DNA of 52,917 nt from Clostridia bacterium. GTDB lineage: Bacteria > Bacillota > Clostridia > Lachnospirales > JAOARL01. Below the pieces are notes generated by a model. The model worked only from the letters and a program-made list of their open reading frames with translations, was not told where the DNA came from and made no database searches. Positions 426-9,326 of the stretch are shown piece after piece (within the stretch, counting starts at the first letter, position 1; each line of letters begins with the position of its first letter). Made by a program: the position numbers and the translations under genes. The stretch is taken from the NCBI GenBank assembly GCA_025210555.1, contig JAOARL010000024.1, positions 1-52,917 of the forward strand, given 5' to 3'.

Positions 426-1286
426 GTGAAAGTTGGTATATATGATAAAGATCAAGAATATGCTAAAAAACTTGTAGATAGGCTTTCATATATTAGAGAA
501 GATATCGAATTTTATTATTCAAAGGATAAAAAAGAAAAAGGTAATACAAATATATTTATTGGAGGTAAGGACAGAAAATTTGCAGAAACGTTTAGAGGAA
601 ATGGAATTTATAAATATCAACCTGCAAAACATATTTTAAAAGAGATATTATCAAAAGTTAGGTATGGAACATTTAATATAAATGCAGATTTGTATATAAT
701 AGCGGCTTTTAATAATAGAGATATTAAAAGTAAAATATCTAAAATAATACTTGAATCAAATATTAGAAAAAAAGAAGAAGAAGTTTTATACATAAATTTT
801 TCAAAAATATATGATGTACCAGATTTTTTAAATGAGATACACAAAAATACATTTTCAAAAGTAATATACAATTATAAAAATAATAAGGAAATTTATTCAA
901 TAGTAAACAAGGATTATGAGACTGGTATAAATTATTTGTTACCATGTCTGAACTTTCTAGAGTATGAAAGTTTATCATTAAATGATTTTGTTAAAATTTT
1001 GGAAAATTATTCAAAAAAATATGGTGTGATTTTAATAGAATATGATGATAATTTCAATTCATTATATGATTTTTTAGTTGATATAGCAAAATCAAAATAT
1101 ATATTATATGATAATACTTCTAATGAGAAAGTGGAATATCTAGAAGATTATTTTGCAATAAAGGATATTAAAAAAATTTATGTACATAAAAACAAAAAAG
1201 CTGCAAACATTAGGGCAGATTATGTTATAAAACCAAACTTTAAAATATTGCCAAGTGGTATGATTGATGAAGTTCTTGGAGAGTGA
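426..1286 (+). CDS. degenerate CpaE/TadZ-like pilus assembly protein
   Basis: This is the first gene of the Tad locus, 286 aa. The GTG start is set by GGAGGTG at 414-420. Residues 1-80 look like a receiver-type fold of the kind seen at the start of CpaE/TadZ. The rest resembles a MinD/ParA-like ATPase: a strand ending in YIIAAF where a P-loop should follow, a helix, then EEVLYINF like the usual VLYLDL strand, and later YGVILIEYDD where Walker-B-like YDYVIIDLP is normal. The GKGGVGKT-type P-loop is absent, replaced by FNNRDIKSK, so ATP binding is unlikely. TadZ-family proteins position the Tad machine at the pole; a structural anchoring role is inferred. The gene overlaps tadA by about 20 nt. 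Assignment rests on context plus weak fold resemblance. Confidence 0.6.
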   Translation: MKVGIYDKDQEYAKKLVDRLSYIREDIEFYYSKDKKEKGNTNIFIGGKDRKFAETFRGNGIYKYQPAKHILKEILSKVRYGTFNINADLYIIAAFNNRDIKSKISKIILESNIRKKEEEVLYINFSKIYDVPDFLNEIHKNTFSKVIYNYKNNKEIYSIVNKDYETGINYLLPCLNFLEYESLSLNDFVKILENYSKKYGVILIEYDDNFNSLYDFLVDIAKSKYILYDNTSNEKVEYLEDYFAIKDIKKIYVHKNKKAANIRADYVIKPNFKILPSGMIDEVLGE

Positions 1287-2364
1287 ATTAAAGGAATTAA
1301 AAGTTAGAGCTATTGAAAAAATTGGTTCTGAGAAAGATGAAATTAGAGTTAAAGAAGCTATTGTAGATATTATATTAGAAAAATTCAAATTTAAAGGATT
1401 AACTATTGAAGAAATCGATAAATTAAAAAACAATATGTATAATTCAATAAAAGAATATGGAAAGATTCAAAAGTATTTGGATGATGATAGTATTACAGAG
1501 ATAATGATAAATGGGACAAGAAATATATATATAGAAAGAGATTGCAAGTTAATAAAATTAGAGGATAGATTTGATAGTGAAGAAGAATTGTATCAAATGA
1601 TACAAAAAATTGTAGGTAGAATAAATAGAAAATTAAATTTAGTAAACCCAATAGTTGATGCAAGGTTGTTAGACGGATCAAGGGTTAATGTTATTAATAA
1701 AAATATTGCTATAGGTGGACCAATAATCACAATCAGAAAATTTAAAAAAGAGTTTATAGAAATAGATAAACTTGTTGAGAATAAGATGTTTGATAGTGAA
1801 ATAAAAAAATATCTTAAAAAAGCTATAGTAACTAAAAAAAATATAGTTATATGTGGTGGAACAGGGACTGGTAAAACTACATTATTAAATGCGTTAGCAC
1901 GATTTATCGATTCGAATGAGAGAATTATTTCAATAGAGGATTCAGCTGAAATAGATTTGTCAAACATAGAAAATTTAGTTTCATTAGAAGTCAAAGATAA
2001 AGATATAGAAACAGGCATAGGAGTATCTATGAGTGATTTAATTAAAGCATCGTTAAGAATGCGGCCAGACAGAATCATAATAGGTGAAGTAAGAGGTAAA
2101 GAGGCTTTTGATTTACTTAAAGCAATGAATACAGGGCACAAAGGAACGTTATCTACTGGACATAGTAATTCAGCTATAGATATGATTAGGCGTTTACACA
2201 ATATGGTTCTTGAAGGATATAAAATGTCGGAAAAGTCTATTGAGAATCAGATATATTCAGCAATAGATATAATTATTTTTATAGAAAAAGATAAAAGCTT
2301 GAGAAAAATAAAAGAGGTTGTGGAACTAATTAATGGGAATAATGAAATCAAAAAAATTTTATGA
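1267..2364 (+). CDS. tadA: Tad/Flp pilus assembly ATPase TadA (CpaF)
   Basis: This is the secretion ATPase (VirB11/PulE superfamily) that powers Flp pilus extension at the cytoplasmic face of the membrane. Numbered from ATG 1267, Walker A GGTGTGKTT is at residues 197-205, the Asp-box/Walker B region RPDRIIIGEVRG at 266-277, and the His-box KGTLSTGHSN follows. The N-terminal half has the family motif ITEIMINGTRNIYIER. Its length of about 365 aa is usual for CpaF. A TTG one codon earlier (1264) is an alternative start; ATG is preferred because AAGTGG lies 8 nt upstream. It overlaps the preceding gene, and its 3' end overlaps the next gene by 32 nt, which suggests translational coupling. Confidence 0.93.
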   Translation: MKFLESELKELKVRAIEKIGSEKDEIRVKEAIVDIILEKFKFKGLTIEEIDKLKNNMYNSIKEYGKIQKYLDDDSITEIMINGTRNIYIERDCKLIKLEDRFDSEEELYQMIQKIVGRINRKLNLVNPIVDARLLDGSRVNVINKNIAIGGPIITIRKFKKEFIEIDKLVENKMFDSEIKKYLKKAIVTKKNIVICGGTGTGKTTLLNALARFIDSNERIISIEDSAEIDLSNIENLVSLEVKDKDIETGIGVSMSDLIKASLRMRPDRIIIGEVRGKEAFDLLKAMNTGHKGTLSTGHSNSAIDMIRRLHNMVLEGYKMSEKSIENQIYSAIDIIIFIEKDKSLRKIKEVVELINGNNEIKKIL

Positions 2365-3043
2365 AGGTTTATTGATATATATAATAGAAACATTAAAAGC
2401 ATTAATATATTTTAGATCCGTTTTATGGGCTACAATAATAGGAATGATTGCAATATTACGATGCAGAGAACATTTTAAGTATAGAGAACTTATAAAAAAA
2501 GAAAAACTAAAGAATGAGTTTAATGAGTTTCTAAAATCAATTAATATCTATTTGAAATCAGGTGAAAATTTAGAAAGAGCATTTAAGAATGTATTGAAAG
2601 ATTTTGATGATAAATCAGTAATATATAATGAAATCAGTAAGATTAGTCTAAACTTAGAAAATGGAATGAACCTGAAATATTCATTAACTAGTTTTTTAAA
2701 GGGGCAGAAAATTGAAGAGGTAGATCAATTTAGAAAAATTATAATAGTAAATTATGAAAAGGGTGGTAACTTTTCATATAGCATATCTAGTGCGATTGAT
2801 CTTATAAATGAAAAGAATGAGCTTAATAGAGAGAGACATCTAGCTATAGCAAGAAAAAGATTTGAAGCTAATATTTTAATTTTGCTGCCATATATAATAA
2901 TTATTCTAATGTATATATCTGCTAATAATTATATGAGTATTCTGAGTAATAGCAAAACAGGTAGAATTTTAACTATAATTGCATATTGTCTAAACCTTTT
3001 GGGAGAATTTTTAATTAGAGGGATGGTTAATGAAAAAATATAA
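2333..3043 (+). CDS. tadB: TadB-like inner-membrane platform protein (T2SF fold)
   Basis: A 236-aa protein directly after the TadA ATPase. A hydrophobic segment lies at about residues 25-43. A cytoplasmic helical region (about 50-165) contains a T2SF-like pattern with SINIYLKSGENLERAFKN and later ENGMNLKYSLTSFL and GGNFSYSISSAI. Two hydrophobic segments occupy the C-terminus. TadB and TadC form the membrane platform on which TadA works. The protein is shorter than typical TadB (about 300 aa), and the N-terminal membrane part is reduced. The ATG at 2333 lies inside tadA and the end overlaps the next start by 14 nt. Confidence 0.78.
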   Translation: MGIMKSKKFYEGLLIYIIETLKALIYFRSVLWATIIGMIAILRCREHFKYRELIKKEKLKNEFNEFLKSINIYLKSGENLERAFKNVLKDFDDKSVIYNEISKISLNLENGMNLKYSLTSFLKGQKIEEVDQFRKIIIVNYEKGGNFSYSISSAIDLINEKNELNRERHLAIARKRFEANILILLPYIIIILMYISANNYMSILSNSKTGRILTIIAYCLNLLGEFLIRGMVNEKI

Positions 3044-4061
3044 AAAAGTTACTATAATATTTTTGTTAATAGTAATGACTGAAATAATTAGTTCATATAC
3101 CAGTGAAATTATAATAAATAAAATAAGACGTAACAAGTATTCAGAAGGAGCTTATGAAAAATCAATAATTTTAGAAATTGATGGTAAAAAATATGAGAAA
3201 AATTTTTATATAAATACACTTAGAGAAGATAGTGAAGATAAAGTTTTAAAAGTATATAACCTGTTAAAATTAGATGAAAGAGTAGTAAATGGTGAAATAT
3301 ATGGATATAGTGATGTTGAAATTAGTTGGGATGAGGATGAAAAAAACATATATGCCACAATTAAGTGTGAGTTAGCTAGTATTAAGAAAAAATTTCATAA
3401 AAAAATGCCGGAAGTTTCAGAAAATCTAATAAAAGATATCCGAAATAAATTAAATGAAAAGAGTGATAGGAATAGTGAAGAGCTACCTAAAATCATTAAC
3501 GGAAAATCATTAAAGTGGATAGTAAAAAAGGAAAATATACATTTAAAAGTTTTTGAATTATTTTTAATAGGTTTGATTGGTTTAAATGCTTATAAAAATG
3601 TTAAAAAGAATAAATTTAAATTAGAAGAAAAAGAGCATATGAAAAATGTGCTAGAAAATAAGATTATGGAAATAGGGATATTATATAGTATAGGAGAAAG
3701 TAAAAATAACATATTCAACAAGTTAGTATTTGAAAGTAAAGAAGTAAATGAAAAATTTGATAAGTATAGAAAAAATATTGAGGCGAATCAAAATATAAAT
3801 AAAGAACTATTATGTTTTGCAGAAGAAATTGGAAGTAAAAATTTCAAAGAATTTTTAAGTTTAATTATAAAATATGATTTTACAGGAAGTAATGGATTTG
3901 AACTAGAGTTTAAAAGATTAGTGGAGGATATATGGAAAAAAGAAAGGTATAGACTAAGAGAAGAAATAGAAAAAAGAACAGTGCAGATAATATTTCCTAT
4001 GTTTATGATATTTATATCAATATTAATAATAGTAATGTCACCTGCAATACTAAGTTTTTAA
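3030..4061 (+). CDS. tadC: TadC-like platform protein with an extracytoplasmic N-terminal domain
   Basis: 343 aa. Residues 7-26 form a signal-anchor or first membrane helix. Residues 27-170 are hydrophilic with a beta-rich look (YEKSIILEIDG, DVEISWDEDEKNIYATIKCEL) and would lie outside the membrane. Residues about 173-190 form a second helix, 195-315 are a helical T2SF-like cytoplasmic region, and 317-340 form the last helix, preceded by EKRTVQIIFP, which resembles the T2SF exit motif. The gene position after tadA and tadB supports TadC. The outside domain is not part of the classical TadC architecture and is the odd feature here. Start ATG 3030 overlaps the previous gene. Confidence 0.72.
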   Translation: MKKYKKVTIIFLLIVMTEIISSYTSEIIINKIRRNKYSEGAYEKSIILEIDGKKYEKNFYINTLREDSEDKVLKVYNLLKLDERVVNGEIYGYSDVEISWDEDEKNIYATIKCELASIKKKFHKKMPEVSENLIKDIRNKLNEKSDRNSEELPKIINGKSLKWIVKKENIHLKVFELFLIGLIGLNAYKNVKKNKFKLEEKEHMKNVLENKIMEIGILYSIGESKNNIFNKLVFESKEVNEKFDKYRKNIEANQNINKELLCFAEEIGSKNFKEFLSLIIKYDFTGSNGFELEFKRLVEDIWKKERYRLREEIEKRTVQIIFPMFMIFISILIIVMSPAILSF

Positions 4062-4072
4062 AGGAGATTAAA

Positions 4073-4273
4073 ATGAGTGAAATTTTGAAAAGTGAAAGGG
4101 GAATAAATACTGTTGAAATTGTTATTATAATGGCAGTATTAGTAACAGTAGCTTTGATTTTTAGAGCTAGTGTTTTTGGATTTGTAAAGAAATCAATTAA
4201 TGGAATATTTAAAGATGAACAGATCATCCATATGGAAAGAAACATATTACCAGGTTTAGATGAAAATATATAG
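4073..4273 (+). CDS. Flp1-like type IVb pilin
   Basis: A 66-aa protein with the class III prepilin layout: a short charged leader ending in SERG, then INTVE with Glu at position +5, then an unbroken hydrophobic helix of about 20 residues (IVIIMAVLVTVALIFRASVF) and a short polar tail. Cleavage after Gly by a TadV-type peptidase is expected; no such peptidase is encoded in this locus. It probably forms the main pilus subunit. A good ribosome-binding site (AAGGAG) precedes ATG 4073, the clearest inside the cluster, consistent with higher expression. Its 3' end overlaps the next gene by 14 nt. Confidence 0.8.
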   Translation: MSEILKSERGINTVEIVIIMAVLVTVALIFRASVFGFVKKSINGIFKDEQIIHMERNILPGLDENI

Positions 4274-4652
4274 TCAAAAAGGTAGTTTTACTCTTGAGAG
4301 TACAATTATATTCCCGATTATATTTTTTTGTTTAATAATTTTCATGAAGTTAAGTGTAACATTATATAAGGTTGAATTATTTAGAATATTGATTAATAGG
4401 AATTTTAATCATGAAAAAATGATTTTGAAAACAAATGAATTTGGACTATTTAGGAATATAAAGGTAGAAATTGAAGATATGAATATTTATTTTGTTAAGG
4501 TTAGAAAAATAAAAGGAACCAACAATCGAATTATTAAAAAAAATATTATATATAGTTTTTATGATTTAAAACGATTTATTGATAATGAAAAAGTTAAAGT
4601 TAATTATATAGATTTAGAAAAGAGGTTTAGAGGAATATTTGAATTGGATTAA
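4260..4652 (+). CDS. TadE-like pseudopilin
   Basis: A 130-aa protein with a pilin-like N-terminus: KGSFTLESTIIFPIIFFCLIIF, in which G-SFTLE gives a cleavage-like Gly and Glu+5, followed by one membrane helix (about residues 14-34) and an extracytoplasmic tail. TadE/TadF pseudopilins are minor components needed for Flp pilus assembly. It overlaps the pilin gene before it and the TTG start of the gene after it. Confidence 0.72.
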   Translation: MKIYSQKGSFTLESTIIFPIIFFCLIIFMKLSVTLYKVELFRILINRNFNHEKMILKTNEFGLFRNIKVEIEDMNIYFVKVRKIKGTNNRIIKKNIIYSFYDLKRFIDNEKVKVNYIDLEKRFRGIFELD

Positions 4653-6087
4653 ACATAATGAAAAGGGAGTAATTACAGTTTTTATATTAATTTCATCTTT
4701 TGCATTAATTAGTTTAAGTGTTTTTTTGCTTTTAAGCATGAAAAAAACAAGTGATATAAATAATATTTTAAGGTGTTTAGAAATAGCAGAACATAATGAG
4801 CTTATTAAGTATAATGACTATTTATATGAAAACTATTATATATATGCCTCAAATAATATAAACAAAGAAACATTTAATAAATCGCTTATTGATATGATGG
4901 TGTACGTAGAAAGTATTAATAATTTCAATGATCAGTATAATTTGAGCGAAAATAGAGTTTTGAAAAAGGAACTAATTAGGTCAGCAAAAGATAATGTTGT
5001 TACAGGAATAATAGAAAAACTTTATATAGTTATTAATAGAATAAATAGAGAAAAAAGTGAGCATGGGGAATATGAAAATATGTTAATAAAAGATGCATAT
5101 TTACATAAAATAGGAGTAATTGAGGCCGAAATAAGATTGTTTATAAAAAAAATAAATAGAGGTGAGATAGATTATATTATTCATTTAAACAGTGTACTGA
5201 ATAAAATTTTTGAAATAAAAAGGTTAGAGAGAGAATGTAATGGTAAAGTAGCTGAAAAGATAGAAATAAGTGAAATATTAGAATTAGAAAAAGAAATTTT
5301 AAAAGGAATAGAAGCATATCGAGAAAATGGAACTATAAGGAAATATAGTATAGGAAAAGCTGTTGAAGAATATGAAAAAGAATACTTAAAGTATGATAAT
5401 AGGAAAAAATCATATAAAAAATTAAATGATTCTTTAATGCTAGATGATAACGATAAAGAAGTTATTGTTAGATATTTAGATGTTAGAAACCAAAAAATTA
5501 AAATTGATAGTATTGATAAAATAATTATTTGTGCTTACATGGCTGATAAATCAAATAGTTATATAAAAAATGCATATGGCAGTAGATATTTGAAGTACGA
5601 AAGTGAATATATAATATCAGGGAAAAAAAGTGATAGAGAAAATCTGAAAAGCACTTTAATAAAAATAAAATCATTATTGTTTTTATTAAGATCACCTCAA
5701 ATATTTATGAATGAGAAATTAAATCTTAAAGCATATAAAATATCTCTAGCCATATGTGGAACAACTGGGATTGGACCATCATTTATAGAGCCAATCAAAA
5801 ATTTAGTTTTGCTATCTTATGTAGAGAATAAAATAGCAGATGATATTATGAGGTTAAGATCAAATAAAAAAGTAAAGTTATTTAATAATATAGAAATAAA
5901 CTATCAGGAATTTATAATAGCCCTTATGTTTTTTGTTGAAGATAATAAATTAATTAACAGATGTAAAGAATTAATAAATATGAACATGGAACATAATGGT
6001 CAGGGATGTTTAATAAATTATTATCAAGGTGCTAAATATGAGATAAAGGTAAAAGGAAATACTTATATAAATGAATTTAGTTATTAG
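4639..6087 (+). CDS. large pseudopilin-like protein of the Tad locus (DUF5702-like)
   Basis: A 482-aa protein with NEKGVITVFILISSFALISLSVFLLLSM at the N-terminus, a Tad-type leader plus a membrane helix, and a long, largely helical, charged extracytoplasmic region (a coiled-coil-rich stretch at about 130-270). A protein of this size with this leader is commonly found between the TadE-like genes in clostridial Tad loci and matches what I know as DUF5702; its function is not known to me. The start is TTG 4639, supported by GAGG 6 nt upstream and by the leader motif. The 3' end overlaps the next gene by 17 nt. Confidence 0.62.
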   Translation: MNWIKHNEKGVITVFILISSFALISLSVFLLLSMKKTSDINNILRCLEIAEHNELIKYNDYLYENYYIYASNNINKETFNKSLIDMMVYVESINNFNDQYNLSENRVLKKELIRSAKDNVVTGIIEKLYIVINRINREKSEHGEYENMLIKDAYLHKIGVIEAEIRLFIKKINRGEIDYIIHLNSVLNKIFEIKRLERECNGKVAEKIEISEILELEKEILKGIEAYRENGTIRKYSIGKAVEEYEKEYLKYDNRKKSYKKLNDSLMLDDNDKEVIVRYLDVRNQKIKIDSIDKIIICAYMADKSNSYIKNAYGSRYLKYESEYIISGKKSDRENLKSTLIKIKSLLFLLRSPQIFMNEKLNLKAYKISLAICGTTGIGPSFIEPIKNLVLLSYVENKIADDIMRLRSNKKVKLFNNIEINYQEFIIALMFFVEDNKLINRCKELINMNMEHNGQGCLINYYQGAKYEIKVKGNTYINEFSY

Positions 6088-6832
6088 AGAAGAAAAAGGG
6101 AGCCTAGTTGTAGAGGCGATAATAGGTTTCATGTTTTTTGTAATATTAATTTTGAACTTAATATATTTGTTTAAAATAGTTGCAGAGAATGATACAGTTT
6201 CAGATTTAACAAAGAGATATTTTATGAATGCATATCTTATGAATGATTGTTTTGATACTGATATAAGTAACATTAATTATTACAAATCATATTTAAAACT
6301 AAATTGTGTAGATACAAATGTTAAATATTATGAATTCAAAGAGTTGGAAAATAGTTATCTAATAGAAATAAGGAGCGAAACAAAAATATACAATATATTT
6401 AAAGTTGGAAATATCAATAAGTTTGTATTAAATAAACATCAAATGAATTTTAGAAACGTAGAAACACTAAAATCAAGTATAAATGTTTGGGAACTAAGTA
6501 ATTTAGCTAGGGGTATTAGAATTGCTGAGATATTAGGTAAAAATAACAATTCAAAGTGGGATATAGATGTAATACAGGATAATAAGGCTATATCAGTAAT
6601 AAGTATAGATTTATTCAAAAAAACATATAATAATATTAGTGCAATCAAGAACAAAATAAATGTAGAAGTAAAAAAAATAGAAGCATATAGGAAAAAACAT
6701 TCTAATTTTATTAACTTTTTATATATTATTACTCCAATAAATTTGAGTGAAGAATGGAAAAAAGAGATTTACAAATGTTTAAAATTTAAAAATATAGCAG
6801 TTAAGTTTTATATATTAAAGGGAGGTAATTAA
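6071..6832 (+). CDS. TadE-like pseudopilin with a long C-terminal domain
   Basis: A 253-aa protein. EEKGSLVVEAIIGFMFFVILILNLIYLF supplies the leader Gly, the Glu at +5 and one membrane helix; about 215 residues outside follow. The pattern SLVVEAIIG is typical of TadE-like proteins. The region from about residue 140 on (LARGIRIAEILG, KWDIDVIQDNKAISVISIDLF) forms an alpha/beta-looking domain I do not recognise. It overlaps the upstream gene by 17 nt. GGAGGT at 6821-6826, inside its own 3' end, serves the next gene. Confidence 0.65.
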   Translation: MNLVIREEKGSLVVEAIIGFMFFVILILNLIYLFKIVAENDTVSDLTKRYFMNAYLMNDCFDTDISNINYYKSYLKLNCVDTNVKYYEFKELENSYLIEIRSETKIYNIFKVGNINKFVLNKHQMNFRNVETLKSSINVWELSNLARGIRIAEILGKNNNSKWDIDVIQDNKAISVISIDLFKKTYNNISAIKNKINVEVKKIEAYRKKHSNFINFLYIITPINLSEEWKKEIYKCLKFKNIAVKFYILKGGN

Positions 6833-6851
6833 GATAAGTTATATTGAGAAA

Positions 6852-7631
6852 ATGATTAAGTATAATGATTTAGCATATTATATTTCTGATTCTAAGATTG
6901 AAAAGGAAGTTTATTTAGTAGATTACTTGAAGGATAAAAAAATAACGATAAAAGAATTTTTTAAAATAACAAAAGGAATATTTAAAACTTTGGAAATTGG
7001 AAAAGAATATTTAATTACTGAAGCTAGTATAAGTTTTGATAGTGATAAAATAATTATTAGAGATAACTATAAATTAATATTACCTATAAATATAGATGGT
7101 AATGTTAGAAGTAAGTTAGTTGATTTATTAAATGAATTATATTATAGCATAGAGAGTAGTGAATTCATTAAATATAAAGGATTAGAAGTTATAAAAGAAA
7201 TAATAAACAGCAATTCAAACTGTTTAGTTAAGTTAATAAAATATGAAAGAAATATTAAAAAAATCTATTTCAGTATAAATATAATGAAATTTTTTAATAC
7301 AAATAAAACAGAAGTATTAGAGCAACAAAAAATAATAAAAATAATTGATGAAGATGGATTGGAGATAAATTTAGATAAGGAAGTAAATAGTTTTGGAAGT
7401 GACAAAAGAAGAGTTGACAATTGTATAAAAAACAAACTTGTAAGTAGTTATCATTTTGAAATAATAAAAATTGAAAATAATATTTATGTCTTAGATTGCT
7501 CTTCAACAAATGGAACGTTTTTAAATAACAAAAAAGTGCTTTCGTATAAGAAAAAAAAGATTGTAAATGGTGATATCATTAGAGTTGCAAATATTGAATA
7601 TGAAGTGGTAGTAGATGAAAAGTGGCAATAG
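6852..7631 (+). CDS. FHA-domain protein of the Tad locus (DUF6382-like N-terminus)
   Basis: A 259-aa protein (from ATG 6852). Residues 1-150 resemble the N-terminal domain that clostridial Tad-locus FHA proteins carry (DUF6382). Residues about 165-258 form an FHA domain: FGSDKRRVDNCIKNKLVSS, then SYHFEI and DCSSTNGTFLNNKKV, with the SSTNGTFLN core intact. The first conserved Gly/Arg pair is changed (FGSDKRR against the usual IGR), although Ser and His of the SxxH motif are present as SSYH. FHA domains bind phosphothreonine, and the next gene is a Ser/Thr kinase, so a kinase/reader pair acting on the pilus machine is inferred. The start is uncertain; see the finding on ATA 6834. Confidence 0.8.
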   Translation: MIKYNDLAYYISDSKIEKEVYLVDYLKDKKITIKEFFKITKGIFKTLEIGKEYLITEASISFDSDKIIIRDNYKLILPINIDGNVRSKLVDLLNELYYSIESSEFIKYKGLEVIKEIINSNSNCLVKLIKYERNIKKIYFSINIMKFFNTNKTEVLEQQKIIKIIDEDGLEINLDKEVNSFGSDKRRVDNCIKNKLVSSYHFEIIKIENNIYVLDCSSTNGTFLNNKKVLSYKKKKIVNGDIIRVANIEYEVVVDEKWQ

Positions 7632-8787
7632 CATAACTCAAGAAGTAATTCTAATAAAAAATGGTATGAAACTAAATAATAAATACGTAATTTTAAAAAA
7701 AATTAGCAACGGTTATATTTCAGAAGTGTATTTAGCTAAACATATAAAGTTCGGTTATAAGGTTATTTTAAAGATGGCATATGATAATTGTGTAATAGAA
7801 AATGAAGTTAGAGTTATGAATAAGATAAATAGTAATTTCATACCCAAAGTATTAGATTTATTCTACTATTCAGGAATATTATTTGCAGTTATACAATATA
7901 TAGAAGGGAAATCGCTAGATTCAATAAGTAAAAAAACAAGAGAATTAAATAAAATATTAATATCTATACTGAAAGTATTAGAAGAAATTCATAATTCGAA
8001 AGTAATACACTTAGATTTAAAACCTAGTAATATAATTGTTTCTAGAGAAAATATTGCATATATTATAGATTTTGGAAGTAGTAAGCTGTTTGGAGATAAA
8101 ACAACTAAAAGATATTTTAGTAAAGGATATACAGATACTAATAAGAAAAAATTAACTAAAAAAAATGATATATATGCAATTAAGAAAGTCATTAAAGAAT
8201 TTGGTATTTATGGAATAGAGTTAAAAAAAGCGGAAACTATTAAAGAATTAATAAGGATACTTAATGTTGAAAAAACAAAATATTTAGGAAGTAGCAATAA
8301 ATTAATTTTAAGTACTACAGAAACAGCAGGAAAATACGAAGTAGCAAATAATATGGAATCGTTTATTAACGAGAAATTAGGAAATAATAATGAAAATGGA
8401 ATTAAAATATTTATGAATGAAATGATGATAGAAAAATGTCAGGAAATATTTTTAGTTACAACACAAGAACGTAAAGACTTAAATAAAATAGAAAAAATTA
8501 TTCAAGAGATAAAAGCTAAAAAAGTTAAAATAATAATTAATAAATATGAGCCTAGTTGTATGTTAGAAGATAATTTTATAAAAAAAATTAAGAAACGTTA
8601 TTGTGTAGAAATTTATTATTTGCCAAATATAAAGAGATCTGTATATCTGAATGTTGATGGTAAAAAATTATATAGACAAAGTAGGGAGTATAATAAAGCA
8701 TTCCATAAAATTTTTGAAATAACATATAAGGAGAAGGGAATAAGCAGATGGGATATAGTAGAAACATTAGAAAAATTATTAAATTAA
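7615..8787 (+). CDS. Ser/Thr protein kinase with a CpaE/MinD-like C-terminal tail
   Basis: 390 aa. Hanks-type kinase motifs: Lys53 in VILKMAY, Glu64 in ENEV, catalytic loop HLDLKPSN (132-139, Asp134, Lys136, Asn139) and Asp152-Phe-Gly. The glycine-rich loop is degraded to ISNGYISEV with a single Gly. The activation segment and C-lobe are short. From about residue 225 the sequence stops looking like a kinase: EIFLVTTQERKDLNKIEKII, then KKVKIIINKYEP and VEIYYLPNIKRSVYLNVDGKKLY resemble the last third of CpaE-type ATPases (the NRY...LPND...A...G pattern). No PASTA repeats or membrane helix are present, so it is cytoplasmic. It overlaps the FHA gene by 17 nt and the next gene by 40 nt. Confidence 0.82.
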   Translation: MKSGNSITQEVILIKNGMKLNNKYVILKKISNGYISEVYLAKHIKFGYKVILKMAYDNCVIENEVRVMNKINSNFIPKVLDLFYYSGILFAVIQYIEGKSLDSISKKTRELNKILISILKVLEEIHNSKVIHLDLKPSNIIVSRENIAYIIDFGSSKLFGDKTTKRYFSKGYTDTNKKKLTKKNDIYAIKKVIKEFGIYGIELKKAETIKELIRILNVEKTKYLGSSNKLILSTTETAGKYEVANNMESFINEKLGNNNENGIKIFMNEMMIEKCQEIFLVTTQERKDLNKIEKIIQEIKAKKVKIIINKYEPSCMLEDNFIKKIKKRYCVEIYYLPNIKRSVYLNVDGKKLYRQSREYNKAFHKIFEITYKEKGISRWDIVETLEKLLN

Positions 8788-9326
8788 TAATATCTTTAGG
8801 TGTGATTTATATACTAGTATTTCTGTTTATAAATAATACTGAAAAAGATCATAAAAATGACATTGAAGAAGTTAGTGTTTTTATTGCAAATAAGTTAATA
8901 AAAGCGGGTGATAGATTGGAAATTAACAATATAGATAGCATAGTGGTAAGGGAAGATTTAGTGCCCAAAAACAGAATGGAGGTATTTGGAAAAAATAAGG
9001 ACATTATTGCAAAAATTGATATTTACCCAAATACATTAATGACAAAAGATATGTTGCTTGAAAAAAATGTATCAGAAGATCTTAGATATCAAGATTTTAA
9101 AGGAATTGAAGTGCTATCAGATTTAGAAGCAGGAGAATACATTGATGTTAGATATAAAAATAACGAAACAGACTTAGCAATTCTATGCAAAAAAGAAGTT
9201 ATAGAAATTGATAATAAATATATAAAATTAATGACAAATGAAAAGGAGAGACAAAAATATGCTAAGTTTTCAGGAAATAAAGGACAATTTTATATTGTTA
9301 AATATATAGAACCATTTTATCAGTGA
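8748..9326 (+). CDS. cpaB: CpaB/RcpC-like SAF-domain protein
   Basis: A 192-aa protein with one N-terminal membrane helix (about residues 9-27) and the rest outside. Residues 40-105 follow the SAF pattern: VSVFIANKLIKAGDRLEINNIDSIVVREDLVP, ending in YPNTLMTKDML. The second half (ISO-type VDVRYKNNETDLAIL) fits the CpaB/RcpC C-terminus. In Gram-negative Tad systems CpaB sits at the secretin; there is no secretin here, so the role would be at the cell wall. It is the last gene of the locus. The start lies within the kinase gene, with a purine-rich AAGGAGAAGGG upstream. Confidence 0.72.
   Translation: MGYSRNIRKIIKLIISLGVIYILVFLFINNTEKDHKNDIEEVSVFIANKLIKAGDRLEINNIDSIVVREDLVPKNRMEVFGKNKDIIAKIDIYPNTLMTKDMLLEKNVSEDLRYQDFKGIEVLSDLEAGEYIDVRYKNNETDLAILCKKEVIEIDNKYIKLMTNEKERQKYAKFSGNKGQFYIVKYIEPFYQ

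Follow-up and report, generated by a model that had tools for sequence, protein, structure and literature searches.

A kinase gene in a Tad operon

Does a protein kinase encoded in a clostridial Tad-type pilus operon carry, as its C-terminal tail, a piece of the CpaE/TadZ part of the same machine, and if so, in what state is that piece? The question arises from the gene at 7615-8787 of the window (the whole stretch of 52,917 nucleotides analysed here), an open frame of 390 codons (ORF translation) for which an earlier note had proposed a kinase with the final third of a CpaE-type ATPase attached. The gene lies inside an operon spanning positions 426-9326 and encoding Tad pilus proteins:

426..1286, + strand: CpaE-like protein at the operon start, with no recognisable P-loop (orthologue L096:2-613)
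1264..2364, + strand: TadA-type motor ATPase (T2SSE, E 6.5e-50)
2333..3043, + strand: TadB-like platform protein (T2SSF)
3030..4061, + strand: TadC-like platform protein (weak T2SSF match)
4260..4652, + strand: short protein with an N-terminal hydrophobic stretch, TadE/pilin-like by position and by eye (no family match)
4639..6087, + strand: DUF5702 protein (Pfam)
6071..6832, + strand: second TadE/pilin-like protein, homologous to the relatives' protein in the same slot
6852..7631, + strand: FHA protein of 259 aa, candidate phosphothreonine reader, overlapping the kinase start
7615..8787, + strand: kinase-CpaE remnant fusion (390 aa), the subject of this study
7666..8274, + strand: its kinase part (residues ~18-220), with K53/E64/D134/N139/D152 retained, a degraded glycine loop, no APE and a shortened C-lobe
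8275..8784, + strand: its tail (residues 221-390), a very probable homologue of the MinD/CpaE-class ATPase domain in sister proteins
8296..8343, + strand: worn Walker A (residues 228-243, NKLILSTTETAGKYEV), in register with the relatives' KKIFLVNGANGVGKST in two of three alignments
8443..8625, + strand: best-predicted tail core (residues ~277-337), modelled as beta-alpha-beta-alpha-beta, pLDDT ~70-86
8748..9326, + strand: CpaB-like membrane protein, overlapping the end of the kinase gene, as in relatives

The kinase part matches Pfam Pkinase over residues 24-196 (E 1.6e-19), with a PknB-family profile among its best matches, and the catalytic residues that the earlier note had listed (K53, E64, D134, N139, D152) are confirmed, together with K136, the F153-G154 that follow D152, and D185. 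By fold match and catalytic K, E, D, N and D the protein is thus of the Hanks type. Its glycine loop (ISNGYISEVY) is degraded, as had also been noticed, and close relatives partly share this state (INTGASSDVY). The Pkinase profile was covered from 1 to 190 of its 263 positions only, so that the end of the C-lobe goes unrecognised; a complete C-lobe, an APE motif and a canonical glycine loop are all missing. Without APE and much of the C-lobe, and with a very long branch in the kinase tree, the window kinase may be weak or inactive. Its core with K, E, D, N and D is shared with the Hanks-type Ser/Thr kinases PknB/Stk1 and PrkC, from which it differs in its degraded glycine loop, its shortened C-lobe, the lack of any transmembrane or PASTA part, and the possession of an ATPase-derived tail.

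Two neighbours are also altered. The FHA protein (6852-7631) has 259 aa, versus 409 aa in the sister loci; the hydrophobic stretch in the middle of the sister proteins is missing from it, and it reaches DUF6382 only below the cut-off; the protein of one relative, where the length is 409 aa, matches both DUF6382 (E 7.4e-25) and FHA (E 2.7e-18). In the CpaE-like protein at 426-1286, Walker A cannot be recognised; the orthologue, L096:2-613, is still detected as AAA_31 (E 2.7e-8). Elsewhere in the same genome, another protein (1759 aa, L077:3362-8638, G000:C36) combines an N-terminal PknB-type kinase with a very long C-terminal region.

Sister fusions in related genomes

Searching 196 genomes of the order for kinases, we came upon loci in which a P-loop domain follows the kinase. 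The four closest relatives come from the metagenome-assembled genomes GWE2_32_10, GWD2_32_19, UBA12072 and Horse_feces368, and all four kinases (541-565 aa) end in a complete MinD/CpaE-like ATPase domain with an intact P-loop. In GWD2_32_19, UBA12072 and GWE2_32_10 (541-562 aa, complete domain at the end, KKIFLVDGVTGAGKST...), the operon has the same order as in the window, namely tadA-tadB-tadC-pilin-like-DUF5702-pilin-like-FHA-kinase-CpaB-like, and the kinase gene likewise overlaps or touches both of its neighbours. Horse_feces368 carries a 565-aa version, whose tail is recognised by Pfam as CobQ/CobB/MinD/ParA (CbiA, E 6.3e-7). Kinases without the tail in sister loci, which the earlier note had named as evidence against its proposal, are therefore not what these four loci show, and in three of the four the order of the operon is that of the window. 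These operons share one arrangement: within a Tad-type locus, and with FHA and CpaB-like neighbours, a kinase continues into a MinD/CpaE-class domain. The window has it too, in the form of a shortened fusion.

The closest sister operons (L095:12173-13852, L096:12049-13761) continue past the CpaB-like gene with an intact MinD-like protein of 263 aa and a second T2SSE ATPase of 560-571 aa, unlike the window operon, which ends after the CpaB-like gene.

Homology of the tail to the MinD/CpaE class

Direct queries by the protein or its tail, BLAST included, returned kinases only or nothing useful, because the tail has diverged too far, and a profile of its relatives was required. We built this profile from the CpaE-like domains of the four relatives, with the window excluded, and ran it against 3157 sequences, among which it recovered the window tail with 17.2 bits (E 4.4e-4); 2000 shuffled versions of the tail reached ~10 bits at most. 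Aligned with hhalign to the relatives' domains, the tail gave P 1.8e-6 over 101 columns, and the kinase parts of the window protein and of its sisters are related at E 9e-17 (BLASTP). The tail thus connects to the MinD-class domain of CpaE-type proteins via the sister proteins. We consider it very probable, from these profile comparisons, that the tail is homologous to the MinD/CpaE-class ATPase domain, and the resemblance first noticed by eye proved right.

Could the tail instead be a lineage-specific kinase extension, unrelated to CpaE and similar to it by chance? Such a reading would agree with the absence of any Pfam match for the tail alone, with the non-significant result of comparing the tail directly with the CpaE-type protein by BLASTP, and with a Foldseek search of the tail model in which the best match had an E of 0.07 and none was significant. 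We nevertheless regard it as very improbable, given a profile score far above that of shuffles of the same composition, the hhalign result, and the position of the tail, which occupies the same place in an orthologous operon. The Foldseek ranking also points to the MinD class, with the MinD-like FlhG as first entry and NifH and TRC40 near the top, which, none being significant, is suggestive only. AlphaFold, run on the tail with the four relatives, predicted a beta-alpha-beta-alpha-beta core such as the second half of a MinD fold would have, and not the kinase C-lobe extension or unrelated fold that the earlier note had set down as contrary outcomes. The model of the full protein, made with five sequences, had a mean pLDDT of 47.9, and no claim is built on it. 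A C-terminal amphipathic helix, as described for CpaE, did not score clearly better than shuffles in the window protein.

A whole fusion that has shrunk

Alignment of NKLILSTTETAGKYEV to KKIFLVNGANGVGKST puts G239 and K240 in register with the Walker A of the sisters, although the stretch is weak and one alignment of three differs. What is left of the motif reads TTETAGKYE, versus an intact GxxGxGKS/T in the sisters. The window protein also lacks blocks present in its sisters after the alpha-F Asp of the kinase, after Walker A and around Walker B. On these alignments, it is a whole kinase-ATPase fusion that has shrunk, with Walker A worn, the middle of the ATPase lost and the kinase C-lobe cut short. 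We thus dropped the idea of a kinase joined to the last third of CpaE, as the sister proteins carry the whole domain. The earlier statement that the tail is without any P-loop stands as far as function is concerned, but the worn Walker A can still be aligned.

Even if a deviant Walker A is allowed, as it is in CpaE/TadZ, none apparently able to bind ATP is found in the tail, and for this reason we file the protein as a remnant and not as a working CpaE; to judge by its sequence, pseudo-ATPase remnant of a kinase-CpaE fusion describes the tail best. As Walker A is unrecognisable in the protein at 426-1286 and worn in the fusion, both CpaE-type proteins of the window operon lack a nucleotide site.

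Relatives of the fused ATPase domain

Searched against the window's own genome, the four-sequence profile found a CpaE-type protein on contig C22 over nearly the whole domain (E 1.6e-8), and a profile of the sister domains aligned with it by hhalign at P 4e-11. The C-terminus of this protein is of the MinD class; its N-terminus resembles a receiver, with a Response_reg match (E 0.0095) that falls short of the curated cut-off. The gene sits in a second pilus-like locus. The latter (L102, G000:C22:14000-33000) contains a CpaB-like protein (337 aa), a MinD-like protein (287 aa), a 558-aa protein in the motor position and platform-like proteins, as well as a 692-aa receiver-like/coiled-coil/MinD protein beside a 706-aa coiled-coil P-loop protein.

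In other families, a second, diverged set of such ATPases (profile A2) is present, in 52 of the 385 genomes of the order. We collected 56 non-identical ATPase domains, 27 of them behind a kinase, 21 alone and eight behind another N-terminus, which in these eight looks receiver-like by eye and is unrecognised by Pfam. In a quick tree, kinase-linked and receiver-linked domains did not form two clean groups. Stand-alone copies often come directly after a fused one: in many genomes, a MinD-like gene of ~200-230 aa directly follows the kinase-ATPase gene (L063:7922-8551, L043:10068-10751, L053:7780-8367, and others). Such a tandem paralogue could pair with the fused copy. At the sequence level, no TadZ structure in the PDB was hit by the fused-ATPase profiles; A2 matched ParA, Soj and Wzc chains over the P-loop surroundings only.

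The fusion agrees with CpaE/TadZ in its MinD/CpaE-class C-terminal domain and its Tad-type operon, and relatives of the fused domain are found behind receiver-like N-termini. It differs in carrying a kinase at the N-terminus, where the atypical receiver (REC) domain of CpaE/TadZ sits. In the window, moreover, the protein has no working P-loop and retains only about the second half of the domain, and a CpaE-like protein is encoded separately in the operon.

Recurrence and origin of the fusions

Intact kinase-ATPase fusions recur in the order. In the set of loci retrieved around kinases, 17 of the 24 fusion kinases and none of the 15 unfused ones lie next to a tadA- or cpaB-like gene (Fisher p 7e-6, to be taken as indicative only, since kinase similarity and length guided the choice of loci, some of which are closely related to one another). 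The kinases of L064, L072, L073 and L074 (558-572 aa, no ATPase tail) lie beside FHA proteins, without tadA- or cpaB-like genes, and belong to a different FHA-kinase module in the same order.

A single clade for all fusion kinases was rejected on the kinase tree (p-AU 5e-5). Since the kinase halves do not form one clade, the pairing of kinase and ATPase probably arose more than once. A group made of the window kinase and its four sisters was not rejected (p 0.44); the tree alone does not place the window kinase there, its branch being very long, and we group them because of synteny and the tail.

Possible role at the pilus motor

A model of the Caulobacter machine surrounds the CpaF motor with six CpaE dimers in a ring; in the piliated state, CpaE touches the motor base, and the dimers probably contact one another through REC domains (PMC13170226). 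For TadZ, a role as a hub recruiting other Tad components has been described (PMC6668835). In the fusions, the kinase would take the N-terminal place of the atypical receiver, and the ATPase half would, by analogy with CpaE, dock at the ring around the motor ATPase TadA/CpaF. With a kinase in the place of REC, and with CpaE modelled as ringing CpaF, we would expect the kinase at the motor ring, and it is in this conditional sense that we retain the earlier placement of the kinase on the localisation module. Once docked, the kinase could reach substrates in its vicinity, for instance the motor, platform or CpaE proteins; by binding phosphothreonines, the FHA protein encoded alongside could link phosphorylation to the assembly or extension of pili. 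The window species would have dropped the nucleotide switch, leaving the tail as a constitutive docking module. Taken as a whole, the statement that the protein is a reduced kinase-CpaE fusion of the Tad loci of this clostridial order, whose tail docks the kinase at the motor and whose phosphorylation is read by the FHA protein, has in our estimate a probability of about 0.5. A broader one is tentative, and we rather doubt it: that in Clostridia the CpaE receiver was swapped more than once for a Ser/Thr kinase, giving a motor-ring kinase read by FHA, that local phosphorylation switches assembly, and that the ATPase half in the window is a kinase-docking pseudo-ATPase.

Two other explanations concern what the protein does. 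The genome is small (1.56 Mb), and its Tad operon might be degenerating by reductive decay, with the kinase-tail protein a relic that has no working role. The loss of the P-loop from both CpaE-like proteins, the shortened FHA protein and kinase C-lobe, and the very long kinase branch all fit such decay; on the other hand, frames are open and overlapping across the whole operon, gene order is retained, and the kinase has kept all its catalytic residues while flanking parts changed, and we find decay unlikely. MinD/ParA-class domains dimerise on ATP, and the ATPase half could instead work as a switch, turning the kinase on through ATP-dependent dimerisation; the window would then retain only a dimerisation or autoinhibitory tail. 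Besides this property of the class, the P-loop kept in the relatives' fused ATPases and the frequent stand-alone copy that might pair with the fused one would suit a switch. The window protein, however, lost the switch and kept the kinase, and the association with tadA- and cpaB-like genes and with receiver-CpaE relatives points to a pilus role too, so that a switch in place of docking seems to us quite improbable, although switching and docking are not mutually exclusive.

The nearest described case that we found, in the part of the source available, is a survey of novel type VII secretion subtypes (PMC11217815), where that part describes kinases, DUF6382-FHA proteins and TadZ-type receiver-ATPases in clostridial secretion loci; kinase and TadZ-like ATPase are separate proteins there, whereas the window operon is of the Tad type. 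The literature covered, which was partial, yielded no description of a kinase-CpaE fusion, and this absence is weak evidence.

CpaE/TadZ is the Tad part thought to position the machine and to ring its motor. A kinase attached to a CpaE-type part, beside an FHA reader, leads to a proposal for the switching of Gram-positive Tad pili, in which phosphorylation signalling may be built into the pilus machines themselves. It also suggests a receiver-for-kinase domain swap on one ATPase family. The family of fusions is of more interest than the worn copy in the window, in which the ATPase half persists in spite of its lost nucleotide site.
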